This document shows positions 1,317 through 28,495 of a DNA stretch of 33,853 nt, piece after piece. The DNA comes from Bacteroidia bacterium (lineage in GTDB: Bacteria > Bacteroidota > Bacteroidia > CAILMK01 > JBBDIG01), in contig JBBDIG010000023.1 in assembly GCA_040880525.1 (NCBI GenBank), positions 1 to 33,853 on the forward strand. Reading direction: 5' to 3'. Numbering within the stretch: the first letter of the stretch is position 1; each line of letters begins with the position of its first letter. The notes beneath the pieces are model-generated. The model had not been told where the DNA came from, did not search any database, and saw only the letters and a list, made by a program, of their open reading frames with translations. The position numbers and the translations under genes are program-made.

Positions 1317-1459
1317 TAATGCAGGTCCCAATTATTTTGGGACAAGCCCGGATACGGGTTACAGCCCATGGTGATGAGGCGTTGGCAACGGTCGCAAGCC
1401 AGAAAGCCGCAGTATTCCGCTGGCGCGGAATTGTCCGGTAATAAATCGGACCTGCATTA
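1317..1459. repeat. 143-bp multi-hairpin element with 12-bp terminal inverted repeats
   Basis: TAATGCAGGTCC at 1317-1328 is the exact reverse complement of 1448-1459. Inside are further perfect stems: 1325-1331 with 1337-1343 (7 bp, 5-nt loop), 1347-1350 with 1355-1358 (4 bp, 4-nt loop, extendable by a G-T and an A-T pair) and 1414-1420 with 1425-1431 (7 bp, 4-nt loop). It is more GC-rich than the flanking intergenic DNA. I see no target-site duplication. It could be a MITE- or REP-like dispersed element or a structured RNA. It sits next to the disrupted toxin-antitoxin/Rhs locus, which fits an unstable region. Confidence 0.5.
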
Positions 1460-8273: not shown

Positions 8274-8813
8274 ATGAGAAAAATTATCTGGATTTCCGGC
8301 AGCATTGCCGGAGCTATTATGATCTTCAGTTGGTTCATAATGGGAATGGTTTGGCAGTCAGAGGACGGAACTTTTGATTTCGACAAAGGTGAGGTTATAG
8401 GATACACGGCAATGCTGCTGGCACTATCCACTGTGTTCCTGGGCATTAAGGTGTACCGCGACCGCCACCTCGATGGTATTATTTCTTTTAAGACTGCTTT
8501 TCTCACCGGCCTCTATATTGTGCTGGTGGCTTCCGGAATTTATGTGGTGGGATGGATGGTGTATTACCCCAACTTTATGCCCGACTTTGCCGACAAATAC
8601 CAGAAACATCAGGTGGAAAAACTTGACGCAGAGCCTGACCTGACGGAAGAAGAAAAACAGGAACAGATTGCAGAAATGGAAGAGTGGATGGAAATGTACA
8701 AGAATCCCTTCGTAATGGCAGGATTTACTTTCCTTGAAATATTTCCCATCGGATTGGTCGTAGCCATCCTGAGCGCGCTTATCCTGAAACGCAAACCACA
8801 GCCTGCAACATAG
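8274..8813 (+). CDS. DUF4199 domain membrane protein
   Basis: The 179-residue protein has four predicted TM helices: at the N-terminus, ~41-60 (VIGYTAMLLALSTVFLGIKV), ~75-97 and a C-terminal one (FTFLEIFPIGLVVAILSALI). An acidic segment (EPDLTEEEKQEQIAEMEEW) precedes the last helix. The layout and the RDRHLDGIISFKTAF segment fit the DUF4199 family, common in Bacteroidota and of unknown function. It follows a membrane-tethered LuxR-type regulator in the same direction, which suggests a functional pairing. Confidence 0.78.
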   Translation: MRKIIWISGSIAGAIMIFSWFIMGMVWQSEDGTFDFDKGEVIGYTAMLLALSTVFLGIKVYRDRHLDGIISFKTAFLTGLYIVLVASGIYVVGWMVYYPNFMPDFADKYQKHQVEKLDAEPDLTEEEKQEQIAEMEEWMEMYKNPFVMAGFTFLEIFPIGLVVAILSALILKRKPQPAT

Positions 8814-23011: not shown

Positions 23012-26000
23012 CTATCGCACAACAAGAAGTTTATGATAAGAAACCGCTGCATTGATCCTGACCCGCACCACATACAGGCCCTGCTTTAAATCTCCAATAT
23101 CAATGGGTCCCTGATTGTTGTGGCGTTTAACGATAGTTCCTTTCCCGTCAATGAATTCTACAACACCCTCCCCTTTCGAGGCCTCCCAGGTAATGTTCAC
23201 TTCATCACCGGCAGGATTTGGATAAATGCGAACCTGCGACCCTTTCGCCTCCCGAATGGCTGATTCAGAACTGCCTTCAACGGAATGTAGCATTACAACA
23301 GATCCAGCGCCAGCCATCCCTTCGATGAATTTCACGTAATCATTCTCATTGTCCGGTATCAACATGGGGCTGTAGGCCAGGTTAAAGATATAGACCGCTC
23401 CCGCACTGCCACCTCTGGAGTCATCTCCTTTTGCCCCTACTATCGCGAAGTTGTTGGAAATGCCAACAGTGAAACCAAAATCGTCAAGAAATTTAGGGCT
23501 TGGAGCCGTCATTTTTCTGTCCTGAATCCATGAAGTGCCGCTACGGACGAATAAATAAGAAGAGCCGCTACGCAGTCCATTGGGTTCATCCAGGTAAACG
23601 CCAACCAAAGCAGAATCCGTTTCAAGGCTGATAGCCGATCCGAATTGTTCACCTGCACCGGCATCATCCGAAACGAACCTGGCTTGCTGGCTCCAGGTGG
23701 TTCCATTCCTGGAAAAGATATAGACGGAACCTGCATTTGTTGCCGGAGAGTCTACGCCTATGGCACCTACCATTGCATCGTCTCCATGAATGCTGACGCT
23801 GTATCCAAAGCTGTCTTTAAGGTTGGCATTTGATGCAAGAAGCTTAGCCTGCTGGCTCCAGGTTGTTCCATTTCGATTAAAAATATAGGCGGAACCGCTG
23901 TGGGTTCCGTTATCATTATTACGGTGCGCACCTACAATGGCATCCGTTTCCGTCAGATCCACAGAAAAACCGAAATAATCATTCGCCCAACCGTCTGCTG
24001 CTGTAAGCTTGGTTTGCAGCTCCCAATCTCCGTTTCCGTTGCGGAAGAAGAGATAGGCCGAACCGGATTGCGGGCCCTTGTCATCATCTCCCAGTGCGCC
24101 TACAATGGCATAGTCGCCAGAAATTCCGACACTGTAACCATACCAGTCGCCAGTCTGATTGTCTGCAGGGATGATCCTGGCCTTTTGCGTCCAGTGAACT
24201 CCCTGCCGCTCGAAGATGTACGCTGCACCGCTAAAGTTGCCGCTGTCATTAACCTCAGGGGCGCCCACAATGGCATATTTATCCGAAATGGCTACGGATG
24301 ATCCAAACTTATCCTTCGCAGTGCTATCACTTGCAAATATTTTGGCTTGCTGCTTCCAATCTCCATTGTCATTGAAAAGAATATAAACGGCCCCTTTATG
24401 ATTGCTGGTTCTTGGAGCAGATGCAATGGCATAATCACCATGAATATCTACGGCATACCCAAGAAAGTTTCCTGCTGCAAGGGGTAGTATCTCCAGCGTC
24501 CCGAGGTCATAACTCACATCGAAGTTTTCAGAAATAAGGGCGCCCGGCACCACCTTATGAATGCCTTCCGAGGTTCCTGTGATCATGGTTATTGGCAATA
24601 GTCCCGTAACGGAATCGTCTGGCGGAGCATAAGCATCAAGTGAATCTATGATCACCACCACATCTGCACCACCTGAATCGGGCAGGGTACTGTTGTTAAC
24701 CAATGGCCTTCCGTTTACCAGCGGACGCCCGTTAACGAGCGCTCTCCCGTTCACCAGCGCCCTGGCGTTCACAAGGGCTCTCGCGTTTACAAGAGGCCTT
24801 GCACTCACCAACGCAGCAGAGTCAGGATTATCCTGATATTGAAAAATTGAAGCTAATGCTACATCAATAATTTGCAGGGTATCAGGCACAACGTTGTTGA
24901 CCAGAGGCCGGCCATTGACCAGGGGCCTTCCATTTACCAATGCGCGTGCGCTCACCAGAAATGTCAGGTCCTGAATGTCAGAATTCACGAGCGGGCGGCC
25001 ATTAACGAGCGCCCGGCCATCCACCAGCGCAAATGCATTTTCCACCAGGTTGCTCTGATGTTCATGGATAAGGTTATTACGGAATGTTTCCCGCTCAGCA
25101 GAATCAATATTTGATTCATCATAGATATAAATGAAATTAAAAGCTCCAATCGGATCACGAAAATCCAGAGTTAAATTTTCGGGCTTTATGAGCACCGGCA
25201 GCTTTTCAATGGTCAGCAGTCCATCAAAGAATTGATATTCAAAAACTACGGATGTATCCGTACTGTTGGTATCATCCAGGTAAGGCCTGATAAAATATAT
25301 TCCGGTATTGCTGGTGCTGACGGCTGGTGTGAGGAACATCAGGCTGTCAAGGCCCAGGTCGGACAGTGAGTAAGCGGTGCTGTCCATCGGAATTCCATCC
25401 ACCGTTATTGAAGCCCTAAACTCAGGCAACTTCTCACCGAATTTTTTAGCTGTGTCATTAGCCGTTATTGCAATTGTATGCTTCACCGAATTGAAAAAAC
25501 GGAGGGTATCAGAACTTCCACCATCCAGACCGCTGGGGGAGAATGGCGGATTATATACATGCACACCCGGATTTCCCAGGAAAGGCGGAACCGTTGCAGT
25601 CAACTGAGTCTCGTTCAGAAAGGCTGTAGGCAGCGTATCGCCCTGAAGCAATACTTTGGATTGCGGAGAAAAATACTCCCCTTCTAAGTTGAGAACAAAG
25701 GGCTGCGTTCCCGGCACCTTTGAAGTATCATAGGCCAGTTCTGACAGGGTAGGAATGGGTGTACCTAAAGTAAACATAGCTGCCTGCGCATTTACAAATC
25801 CATTTCCGGTCTGAAAGTCGAAACCCGGAGCATCCATATCAATGGCGGTGGAGCTTAAAAGTGTGCGCATTTGAGTTGCGCTAAATGAATCATTGTAAAA
25901 TTTATGCTTCGCCTGCATTAGGAGAGCCGCAACGCCCGCTGCATGAGGCGCTGCCGCTGAAGTCCCGAAAAAGTTAGGGAAGGCATCATTGTCTATGTTG

Positions 26001-28495
26001 AGGCCGCCAAGATTTACGGTGGTGTTGCCCCCGTTCGGAGCGCAGATGTCCGGTTTATTGCGCACCACGCCATTTACAGGCGTTCCGCCCACTGAAGAGA
26101 AAGAAGCAACGGTGGGTGGATCCACACCAAAAATGGGCGTATTGAGGTACAACACTGCGCCCACAGCAATGGCACCTTCAGCATTTGCCTGACCTACAAT
26201 AGTAGAGCTGCCGCTGTTATGCTCATCAATGGTCATCTCCCCCCTGAAGACCACGTATTTAAAATTTACGGTTCCGGAACCGGAGGCGCGAACCACCATG
26301 ATATTAGAGGTGGTTTCATTCAATACTGTGAAAGGAAGTATTTCTATCGGATCACCGCCCAGGTTATTCCGGTTGAATCCAAAAAGCGCCACCCCGTTGT
26401 CATCTGTCAAGTAAATATCAAGATCATTCTCTGTACCCGTGAGCACCTGCCCATTAGAATAGATTGAATCCTCCCACTGCAATACGATGGTGTATGTGCC
26501 GGGTTTCAGTGACACCTTTTGAAATATATCGTTGCCGCCAAAGTTGTGGGCACCACCAACAACGCCAGGAGGAGCCATAGCAGAATCAAAAACACTCTGG
26601 TAAGATTTATTTCCATAGTTCCCGGCAGCGCTGAAGTACGTTGCTCCGTTTGCAACCACGGTATCAACGGCTTGTGCCACCACGCCATCCTGGAAGAAAG
26701 GTTCTGTGATATAAGTAATGTCATCCAGGATGATGTCGCAGTTTGCCTGCTGAAGTTGCAGGATCCCCTGTGCAAAATCATTCGCGCTGATGAAGCCTGT
26801 ACGAAAAGCTAAATCCGCTGCAGGTGCGATGTCGTGGATGATCTGAAGCATTGCCCTGCCCTCATCCGTTCTTCTTCCGAATGGGTAATCCTGTAATATG
26901 TCGACCGAAGCGGGAAGGTCTCCGTTCAGCACATCAGTGAGTGCAGGATTATTTGGAATGGTGTTATAGCTGTCTGACAATACGCCAAGTTTGATCCCTG
27001 TTCCATCAATATTGTAGGCGTTCCGTGCCACAAAACTCCGCATGGAGCTGTCGCCTTTGCTGAGCGTCAAGCCACTATTGCTTAGCGGAGGATATAGCGG
27101 GCGGCAGAAATTGATAAGGCTCTGAAGGCTATCCAGTTTCCACAGGTTGGCGACAGGGAATTTTCCACTGATGATGAGATCGCTTTTCCAGTTGTTGATA
27201 ATATCCGTCAATCCATAAGGGTGCGTTTGCAGCAGCGCAAGGAGCGTATCATATTTACCGGCTATCGCAATGATCTCCACATACACGCTGTCATTTTCCA
27301 GGTTAAAAATATTTCCAAGCGTATCAGAATAGGAATGCGCATTTTGATAGAGGGAGGTAAGTTCTGATCCAAGCGGAGAAGAATGCTTGCCCAGAACAGG
27401 TGGCGGATAATAAGGCAGGATAGTCGGAGAAGTAAACGGAATATGCCTCATCGCTACGTTGTTCCCGATCTGAATATTCGCACGGCTGATCAGGGCACCT
27501 TTCACTTTAACATTTCCTGATCCGGAACCTATATTGATCCCACCGTTCGGGGCGTAGATCGTACCCAGCCACAGCCCTTGCGCGCTGTTATGCGTATTTA
27601 CTGCAAAGCCTCCGGATGAGGTGCCGCTGCCATGGACTTCCATTCTAATTCTGGAAGGATCTCCGCCATTTACTAGGGCTGCTTCAAGTTTCCCCAGGCT
27701 GGCATCATCTTCCACGTAAATCCATAATTGTCCTGTAACGCTGTTCTGAAAATCATAAAGAAAATGAGCTGACGATCCGCTGATGCTGATGGATTTAAAC
27801 ACGTACACACCGGGCCCATCAAACGTGATGGTATCACTGCCACTTGATAAAATAAGGTCACCATAAGCCCCGGGGACGATCGCCTGGCTTGCTGTAATAT
27901 CCTGGGTTCCTGCAGCGGGGATAGAAGCAGGCGCAGGCAGCAGAGGTAACTGGGGCAATGAGGGAGCAGCATTCGTTACACCTCCACCCGAAACAGGTCC
28001 GCTGTAGGTAGAGCCCGCTGGAAGGGTAACTGTGCCTCCCACAAAACCGCTAACAATATTTATATCCCCGTTTGCATCTACATTTCCTGTAAAAACAGCG
28101 TTGGTTCCGGCATTTACTATGTTTCCTGAAACGCTGTTATTATTGGCAGCAGAAATATTCCCGGCAATATTATTCCGGGTCTCTAAGATCACAGTTCCTC
28201 CGCTGTGAATATTTCCTCCGGCTATCATTCTGCCCTGGATGCTGATCTGTATATAACTTCCGACATCTCCGCTGTCCAGATTAAAGTCATCACCAATGGA
28301 TACACTACCGGAAGTTCCCGAATCACCGCCAAAAATGGCGAATTCCGTAAGCTGAAGTGACTGCCCCGCAACATTAAGGGGAAGCAAGAATAGGAAAAGG
28401 ATGAGCGTGTTCTTTATGCCCCTGCGAATTCCTTTTTGAAAAAGGAATCTCTGAAATAACAGGCCGAAGCTGTGCAGACATAATTTTGTATTCAT
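23012..28495 (-). CDS. Giant exported S8/S53-like peptidase with MBG, LVN-repeat, FG-GAP and T9SS domains
   Basis: The 1827-residue protein starts with an extended signal peptide (~45 residues). Regions in order: a Gly/Ser/Asn-rich beta region (~46-355; no named family is certain, though it resembles ice-binding or bactofilin-like beta-solenoids); a subtilase domain (~500-910) with Asp in GVLSDSYN (~509), Glu in RRTDEGRAM (~545) where S8 enzymes have His, and Ser in GTSAAAPHAAG (~845); an IPT/TIG domain (~915-1000); an MBG domain (~1005-1095); a second MBG-like unit (~1096-1338) interrupted by (A/P)LVN(G/A)R arrays (1156-1268); seven FG-GAP-like repeats (~1341-1709; e.g. DYAIVGALGDDDKG); and a T9SS sorting domain (~1755-1827, VRIYPNPAGDEVNITW). 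It is probably a surface or secreted protease or adhesin. The Glu-Asp-Ser triad is inference. Confidence 0.88.
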   Translation of the reverse strand: MNTKLCLHSFGLLFQRFLFQKGIRRGIKNTLILFLFLLPLNVAGQSLQLTEFAIFGGDSGTSGSVSIGDDFNLDSGDVGSYIQISIQGRMIAGGNIHSGGTVILETRNNIAGNISAANNNSVSGNIVNAGTNAVFTGNVDANGDINIVSGFVGGTVTLPAGSTYSGPVSGGGVTNAAPSLPQLPLLPAPASIPAAGTQDITASQAIVPGAYGDLILSSGSDTITFDGPGVYVFKSISISGSSAHFLYDFQNSVTGQLWIYVEDDASLGKLEAALVNGGDPSRIRMEVHGSGTSSGGFAVNTHNSAQGLWLGTIYAPNGGINIGSGSGNVKVKGALISRANIQIGNNVAMRHIPFTSPTILPYYPPPVLGKHSSPLGSELTSLYQNAHSYSDTLGNIFNLENDSVYVEIIAIAGKYDTLLALLQTHPYGLTDIINNWKSDLIISGKFPVANLWKLDSLQSLINFCRPLYPPLSNSGLTLSKGDSSMRSFVARNAYNIDGTGIKLGVLSDSYNTIPNNPALTDVLNGDLPASVDILQDYPFGRRTDEGRAMLQIIHDIAPAADLAFRTGFISANDFAQGILQLQQANCDIILDDITYITEPFFQDGVVAQAVDTVVANGATYFSAAGNYGNKSYQSVFDSAMAPPGVVGGAHNFGGNDIFQKVSLKPGTYTIVLQWEDSIYSNGQVLTGTENDLDIYLTDDNGVALFGFNRNNLGGDPIEILPFTVLNETTSNIMVVRASGSGTVNFKYVVFRGEMTIDEHNSGSSTIVGQANAEGAIAVGAVLYLNTPIFGVDPPTVASFSSVGGTPVNGVVRNKPDICAPNGGNTTVNLGGLNIDNDAFPNFFGTSAAAPHAAGVAALLMQAKHKFYNDSFSATQMRTLLSSTAIDMDAPGFDFQTGNGFVNAQAAMFTLGTPIPTLSELAYDTSKVPGTQPFVLNLEGEYFSPQSKVLLQGDTLPTAFLNETQLTATVPPFLGNPGVHVYNPPFSPSGLDGGSSDTLRFFNSVKHTIAITANDTAKKFGEKLPEFRASITVDGIPMDSTAYSLSDLGLDSLMFLTPAVSTSNTGIYFIRPYLDDTNSTDTSVVFEYQFFDGLLTIEKLPVLIKPENLTLDFRDPIGAFNFIYIYDESNIDSAERETFRNNLIHEHQSNLVENAFALVDGRALVNGRPLVNSDIQDLTFLVSARALVNGRPLVNGRPLVNNVVPDTLQIIDVALASIFQYQDNPDSAALVSARPLVNARALVNARALVNGRALVNGRPLVNGRPLVNNSTLPDSGGADVVVIIDSLDAYAPPDDSVTGLLPITMITGTSEGIHKVVPGALISENFDVSYDLGTLEILPLAAGNFLGYAVDIHGDYAIASAPRTSNHKGAVYILFNDNGDWKQQAKIFASDSTAKDKFGSSVAISDKYAIVGAPEVNDSGNFSGAAYIFERQGVHWTQKARIIPADNQTGDWYGYSVGISGDYAIVGALGDDDKGPQSGSAYLFFRNGNGDWELQTKLTAADGWANDYFGFSVDLTETDAIVGAHRNNDNGTHSGSAYIFNRNGTTWSQQAKLLASNANLKDSFGYSVSIHGDDAMVGAIGVDSPATNAGSVYIFSRNGTTWSQQARFVSDDAGAGEQFGSAISLETDSALVGVYLDEPNGLRSGSSYLFVRSGTSWIQDRKMTAPSPKFLDDFGFTVGISNNFAIVGAKGDDSRGGSAGAVYIFNLAYSPMLIPDNENDYVKFIEGMAGAGSVVMLHSVEGSSESAIREAKGSQVRIYPNPAGDEVNITWEASKGEGVVEFIDGKGTIVKRHNNQGPIDIGDLKQGLYVVRVRINAAVSYHKLLVVR
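24692..25030 (-). repeat. Coding hexapeptide (18-bp) repeat arrays, consensus (A/P)-L-V-N-(G/A)-R
   Basis: Inside the giant protease gene, residues 1156-1268 contain 14 copies of a six-residue unit in three blocks of 3, 4 and 7: roughly 24980-25030, 24892-24960 and 24692-24815. Every block ends in PLVN followed by Ser or Asn. The codons differ between units at most wobble positions (Leu is ttg, ctt, ctg or ctc; Val gtg, gta, gtt or gtc; Arg agg, aga, cgt, cgg or cgc), while the amino acids are kept. This is therefore a protein-level repeat under selection rather than a fresh DNA duplication. Confidence 0.9.

Follow-up and report, generated by a model that had tools for sequence, protein, structure and literature searches.

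A probable decayed copy of a GTAG-tagged REPIN family in a Bacteroidia genome that encodes a RAYT flanked by related elements

The window, by which we mean the whole stretch of 33,853 nucleotides that was analysed, is one contig (C23) of a 3.80 Mb host genome in 60 contigs (G000), which by itself makes up our sample of the genus. Between two divergently oriented open reading frames (ORFs) lies a compact element of 143 bp. It is overlapped by no ATG-start ORF of at least 80 aa, and the 124-aa TTG-start ORF that extends into it (1067-1441), antisense to a 65-aa ORF (1042-1239), looks spurious, in agreement with a preliminary description of the element as non-coding. That description also placed the element beside a rearranged toxin-antitoxin/Rhs locus, a setting that is weakly supported: ORF 164-1045 gives a weak YD-repeat match (TIGR01643, 17.7 bits against a cut-off of 15.8, E 0.0036) but matches no Pfam family, and the 65-aa ORF has no NCBIfam match and a single Pfam match below cut-off. 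On the minus strand at 164-1239, this 65-aa ORF overlaps a 293-aa ORF whose start resembles, by eye, a RelE/ParE toxin and is followed by YD/Rhs-like repeats, as if two genes were fused. Elsewhere on the minus strand of the window, an 1827-aa ORF (23012-28495) includes stretches in which short, near-identical repeats of ALVNGRPLVN type recur. A type IX secretion sorting domain in the host DNA, together with the relatives of its RAYT (described below), points to a host within Bacteroidota.

Four hairpins lie inside the inverted ends of the element (Table 1). Two of them have perfect 7-bp stems and two are shorter or imperfect, so the preliminary count of at least three perfect hairpins stands if short stems are included and falls to two otherwise. 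The outer hairpins are two REP hairpins that face each other in inverted orientation within one unit. When the region 1300-1480 was folded, its stability gave z = -3.39, with 1 of 200 shuffles equally good, and of 5000 first-order resamples of the element, 2 contained two perfect 7-bp hairpins. The inverted ends reported before, 12 bp long and exact, are confirmed. By itself such a repeat is unremarkable and is weak evidence, as at least one within 200 nt arose in 74 of 200 first-order resamples of the whole window (mean 0.61). The ends alone would be compatible with a chance inverted repeat, a reading that the homologous copies described below rule out. The window holds a second perfect 12-bp inverted repeat (8299-8418, inside ORF 8274-8813), which is about the chance expectation.

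Table 1. Features of the element in the window (positions are those of the window; a point marks features given without strand).
Feature	Position	Strand	Basis or remark
Whole REPIN-like element, inverted dimer of REPs	1317..1459	.	143 bp; match to covariance model R1 at 1318-1456
Perfect 12-bp inverted repeat, left end TAATGCAGGTCC	1317..1328	+	sequence
Left tag, GCAG in window copy	1321..1324	+	sequence and alignment of 8 copies
Left REP hairpin GTCCCAA-TTATT-TTGGGAC, perfect 7-bp stem	1325..1343	+	
Left arm, second hairpin AGCCCG / CGGGTT, one G-T pair	1345..1360	+	
Spacer, length and sequence differing between copies	1361..1413	.	alignments
Right arm, second hairpin ATTCCGC-TGGC-GCGGAAT, perfect 7-bp stem	1414..1431	+	
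Right REP hairpin, plus-strand GTCCGGT-AATAA-ATCGGAC, 5 bp and one G-T pair	1433..1451	-	
Right tag, GCAG on the minus strand in window copy	1452..1455	-	sequence and alignment of 8 copies
Perfect 12-bp inverted repeat, right end	1448..1459	-	sequence

The element belongs to a dispersed, multi-copy repeat family that lies mostly between genes. Comparison of the window sequence with the host genome returned 15 matching pieces, and a pattern for the right arm, allowed up to 3 mismatches, was found at 12 places against 0 for its backward control. A covariance model built from 8 copies, the window copy among them (R1), gave 26 matches at E ≤0.001 in the host genome, 150 of 233 candidates having been scored; after merging of strands these are 15 distinct places, 8 of them the training copies. 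They are distributed over C33 (four), C30 (three, of which one, at the start of the contig, is a fragment), C37 (two) and C9, C16, C22, C23 (the window), C24 and C57 (one each). The window copy scores 117.7 bits as a training copy. Outside the 15 places, a third element on C37 (3112-3222) scores 58.0 bits in a direct R1 search. Among 15 copies whose gene context was recorded, a set slightly different from the 15 of R1, two lie inside an ORF of at least 80 aa (116 and 89 aa), four touch an ORF end and nine have no overlap. Weak matches at C48:53448, C28:99494, C46:15590 and C10:40040 were rejected as family copies; they share mainly one hairpin with the element and look like another dispersed repeat, which reads GGAGATTCCTGATATTCCGCTATCGCGAAATTCAGGAATGAC in its C28 copy and has close variants at the other three places.

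Some copies have neighbours in common and others do not. Tandem arrays occur with a period of 110 (C30 and C33) and of 240 (C33), those on C33 including flanking sequence. By eye, the right flanks of the C9, C30, C33 and C57 copies are alike, which suggests that these copies spread by duplication; also by eye, the left flanks of the window, C22, C16 and C57 copies differ, and the neighbouring ORFs are not the same between copies. On C9, C30 and C33 (loci L019, L020 and L017) the copies sit at the same spot near the end of repeated fragments GQLSIYNRCGETIWKGENEGWDGT, seemingly amplified together with them; by eye these fragments look like type IX secretion C-terminal domains, and C57 has a similar junction.

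Across the family, a copy reads ATGTAG, hairpin, second hairpin, a spacer of variable length, second hairpin, hairpin, and CTACAT or a near variant. At the foot of the outer hairpin the family carries a GT[AG]G tag: GTAG is found on the left in 6 of 8 aligned copies (the exceptions being GTAA in C22 and GCAG in the window copy) and on the right in 7 of 8, the window copy, again GCAG, being the one that departs from it. The left arm ends in CTAC in 6 of 8 aligned copies. The arm of two hairpins in tandem is the one unusual feature of the family.

To examine the pairing of the stems we fixed only tag and loop in a search and let the five stem letters of either side vary. With up to 2 mismatches this search returned 157 places and its backward control 78, and pairing was examined on the 10 exact places. 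All 10 have fully complementary stems (8 of 8 pairs), drawn from 5 stem types. The covariation score on the 5 distinct rows was 0.425, a value reached by 0 of 500 shuffles. Two of the five measures of pairing, taken on the same rows, are less strong: the number of stem pairs with two-sided changes, three, is reached by 26 of 500 shuffles, and the number of pair types by 12 of 500. Within the window subfamily alone, the single pair with a two-sided change is the window's own tag position. Across the family, the stems are kept by compensatory changes. The preliminary description had proposed a search for dispersed copies and had set against its own reading the prospect of a single copy with neither homologues nor transcript, or of homologues with uncompensated stems; copies, homologues and compensatory changes are all present.

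Pfam Y1_Tnp is matched at 8 places in the host genome. At one of these, C37:5371-6141, the match to the NCBIfam model for the REP-associated tyrosine transposase (RAYT; NF047646) reaches 87.7 bits against a cut-off of 80. From an ATG at C37:5530 the gene encodes 203 aa with the motifs NHVH, WQ and YVLNNP, and it is intact. On either side the gene is flanked by an element that shares the architecture of the family and has other stem letters. Neither of the two was in the training set of R1, with which they score 74.5 and 37.8 bits. The third C37 element mentioned above lies about 2 kb upstream of the gene. The stem letters are GTCCC and GTCCG in the window subfamily and CTCGG, ATCGG and CTCGT beside the RAYT gene; the latter elements belong to a sister subfamily. 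A joint alignment of both subfamilies misaligned the upstream C37 copy, and neither the model nor the pair counts make use of that alignment. The motifs of the C37 RAYT would put it close to subclass 2.4, a placement by motif alone and with YVLNNP instead of YIxNNP.

The same association recurs in a second genome. Among 12 genomes of the order R1 has matches in 3, and in a wider draw, at E ≤1e-4 and with stricter filters, in 3 of 295 genomes of the class, two of the three with elements beside a RAYT gene. In G006, which belongs to another family of the order, R1 matches flank a RAYT 52% identical to that on C37 and its best relative among the 60 genomes searched. That RAYT match contains one TAA, which in translation precedes the first ATG of the open reading frame. 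In two genomes, the host and G006, a RAYT gene thus has members of one structural family on both sides, and in each the stop codon of the gene is the TAG of the flanking GTAG. The REP-arm pattern, with up to 1 mismatch, occurs 11 times in the host genome, 12 times in G006 and 28 times in a third genome, G007, and 0 times in each of five other genomes of the order; its control gave 0 in all eight. The copies printed for G006 and G007 mostly have a plain form of two inverted GTAG hairpins and a spacer. G007, for all its 28 arm matches, is without a close RAYT (best E 1.1e-7).

More widely, the C37 RAYT has a match, mostly weak, in 22 of 60 relatives. At 21 RAYT loci we scanned for GTAG or GTGG hairpins within 700 nt of the RAYT match and found them at 8 (L074, L076, L077, L080, L082, L084, L092 and L094) and at none of the other 13; a control of one shuffle each of 12 RAYT loci gave 1 match in 93,685 bases. 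At L074 and L082 the hairpins fall inside the RAYT match, and the single GTGG hairpins at L084 and L092 may each be due to chance. No GTAG hairpin lies near the RAYT relatives in G005, G008 and G031. In two genomes of the order, a large adenine methyltransferase of Eco57I type also has a RAYT-like Y1 domain within its reading frame, on the minus strand in both (L142 199-4677, G005:C231; L143 3-3341, G008:C484, where the frame extends past the end of the locus). Pfam Y1_Tnp is matched at residues 635-713 and 656-732, respectively, followed by Eco57I, and the NCBIfam RAYT scores of 70.6 and 69.3 bits lie below the cut-off of 80. Such nesting of a HuH nuclease within a methylase of restriction or BREX-like type looks unusual.

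The remaining Y1 genes of the host genome offer other candidates for the enzyme that moves the family. The RAYT loci at C48 (two genes), C29 (two genes), C15 and C19:54607 were set aside as drivers, no GTAG or GTGG hairpin being present in the loci scanned; the frame at C19:54607 contains a TGA. The two C48 genes are a near-identical pair, as are the two at C29 (L058), and the C48 RAYT motifs are SHVH, WQ and YIHNNP. RAYTs at C48:51129-52307 (L053) and from C19:54511 onward (L061) are flanked by hairpins of other kinds, of the GGTACGAGTTACGCTATCGCTAAACTCGCACC and GCGCGCGTTTAGC types, and the GCGCGCGTTTAGC type recurs on C33 at about 47000 (L017). An IS200-type transposase at C19:94513-94857 (L057; NF033573, 78.0 bits against a cut-off of 55) has a GTAG hairpin on each side and could in principle be the mover in place of the C37 RAYT. 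Its two hairpins have other stems and loops, of the GGTAGGGTT..AACCCTACC type, and both point one way, as expected for the ends of an IS200/IS605 element and unlike the inverted arms of a REPIN; we regard it as a scarcely credible source of the family.

It is also conceivable that the REPIN family is no longer moved by any transposase and that its present copies spread only by tandem duplication and by recombination together with their flanks. This is compatible with a REPIN origin, and the tandem arrays at C33 and C30, the shared right flanks and the decayed tags of the window copy would fit it. The differing left flanks and the presence of an intact RAYT speak against it, and we judge exclusive spread of this kind somewhat unlikely. 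That the elements spread by way of a single-strand transposase of the same genome is, on sequence grounds, very probable. For the window subfamily in particular, we infer mobility by the C37 RAYT from elements of a sister subfamily, since those flanking the gene have other stem letters.

The preliminary description had left a choice between a MITE/REP-like element and a structured RNA. A conventional MITE, derived by deletion from an insertion sequence that has terminal inverted repeats and a DDE transposase, and moved by cut-and-paste, would likewise be short and multi-copy with inverted ends, and the window copy has no sizeable ORF. Yet each arm is itself a tagged hairpin, and the transposase adjoining family members in two genomes is a Y1 RAYT, which leaves a MITE very unlikely. 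The REP half of that suggestion is the one borne out, by a dispersed inverted dimer of GTAG REPs and a RAYT flanked by the same structural family. The other half would make the copies duplicated genes for a small or riboswitch-like RNA, and the stable fold and the compensatory stems are what such an RNA would display. Rfam 15, however, has no match at gathering threshold over the window and none at E up to 1 over 1200-1600, and the element is nearly palindromic, with R1 matches to either strand (117.7 and 61.9 bits); on these grounds the RNA was rejected. The variable neighbouring ORFs and the confinement of the family to 3 of 295 class genomes, beside a RAYT in two of them, point the same way, and we hold an RNA to be extremely improbable.

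We consider it highly likely that the window element represents a decayed REPIN, that is, an inverted dimer of GTAG-tagged REPs (equivalently, a BIME), of a family present in the host and in two other genomes of the order. The window copy is counted as a decayed member because its nearest relative, on C24 (86%), carries GTAG at both ends. In each family arm GTAG stands at the foot of a hairpin whose stem is 7-8 bp long, and in the host genome a second hairpin follows. The RAYT, a HuH/Y1 single-strand endonuclease, would recognise tag and hairpin on single-stranded DNA, cut beside them and so spread the element. The window copy is probably now immobile, since both its tags are GCAG and hardly any cleavage of a GCAG substrate was detected for a Stenotrophomonas REP of the same geometry, in which an 8-bp stem with a 3-nt loop directly follows GTAG (PMC8266576, in the portion available to us). 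The paired change to GCAG has kept the ends complementary, and looks as if it had been copied from arm to arm via the hairpin; because the matching change on both sides leaves the ends perfectly paired, they were noticed in the first place.

A bolder reading, which we think unlikely, joins two proposals: that the host lineage evolved a two-hairpin REPIN arm read by a group-4-like RAYT, G006 and G007 keeping the one-hairpin arm, and that both window tags went from GTAG to GCAG together by hairpin-templated copying. If it were true, a REPIN could be switched off in one step with its palindrome still perfect. For the window itself the finding is an ordinary one, a worn repeat between two ORFs. 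For the family, one- and two-hairpin arms accompanied by RAYTs 52% identical offer a natural experiment on the recognition of REPs by RAYTs.

The family appears to be new, as our literature searches found no paper on this particular GTAG REPIN, and to that extent the preliminary term 'undescribed' was apt; its kind, a REPIN or BIME accompanied by a RAYT, has been described in other bacteria. In the parts of the following sources available to us, REPINs are doublets of inverted REPs whose spread is attributed to RAYTs (PMC3116915), and GTAG REPs and their RAYTs have been catalogued (PMC3733652). The elements described here resemble these in being inverted dimers of GTAG hairpins, dispersed and partly in tandem arrays with their flanks, and in the RAYT flanked by repeats of which GTAG gives the TAG stop (PMC3116915, PMC3733652), a contribution to the RAYT stop codon that has been noted for GTAG REPs (PMC3733652). 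They differ in the second tandem hairpin of the host-genome arms and in their low copy number; spacers with hairpins at both ends are, for their part, recorded for several A. tumefaciens CGTC-3 dimers (PMC3733652). In the same portion of that catalogue GTAG repeats are listed in Proteobacteria, Cyanobacteria, Chloroflexi and the PVC group, and Bacteroidetes for CGTC repeats only (PMC3733652). Our results add a GTAG REPIN family with its RAYT, probably in Bacteroidota, where in the sources available such pairs stand so far at survey level.

Closer parallels are found in two known systems, compared here with the sections of each source that were available. RAYTs of subclass 2.4 (group 4), described as plentiful among Cyanobacteria and Bacteroidetes, are accompanied by GT[AG]G REPs and have NH[IFV]H, WQ and YIxNNP motifs and about 194 aa (PMC6006769). 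The C37 RAYT shares NHVH, WQ and Y-x-x-NNP with this TnpA_REP and is flanked by GT[AG]G REPs, and the CTAC at the end of the left arm in most aligned copies recalls the 'double foot' REPs of the same source; the RAYT differs in having YVLNNP for YIxNNP and 203 aa for about 194, and the two-hairpin arm of the host family was not found described in those sections (PMC6006769). The Stenotrophomonas REPtron Sm belongs to a group 3 RAYT of S. maltophilia, with no second arm hairpin in the part of the account available, and resembles the present family in its GTAG directly at the foot of a perfect 8-bp stem with a 3-nt loop, which is the geometry of the 10 exact arms found here (PMC8266576).
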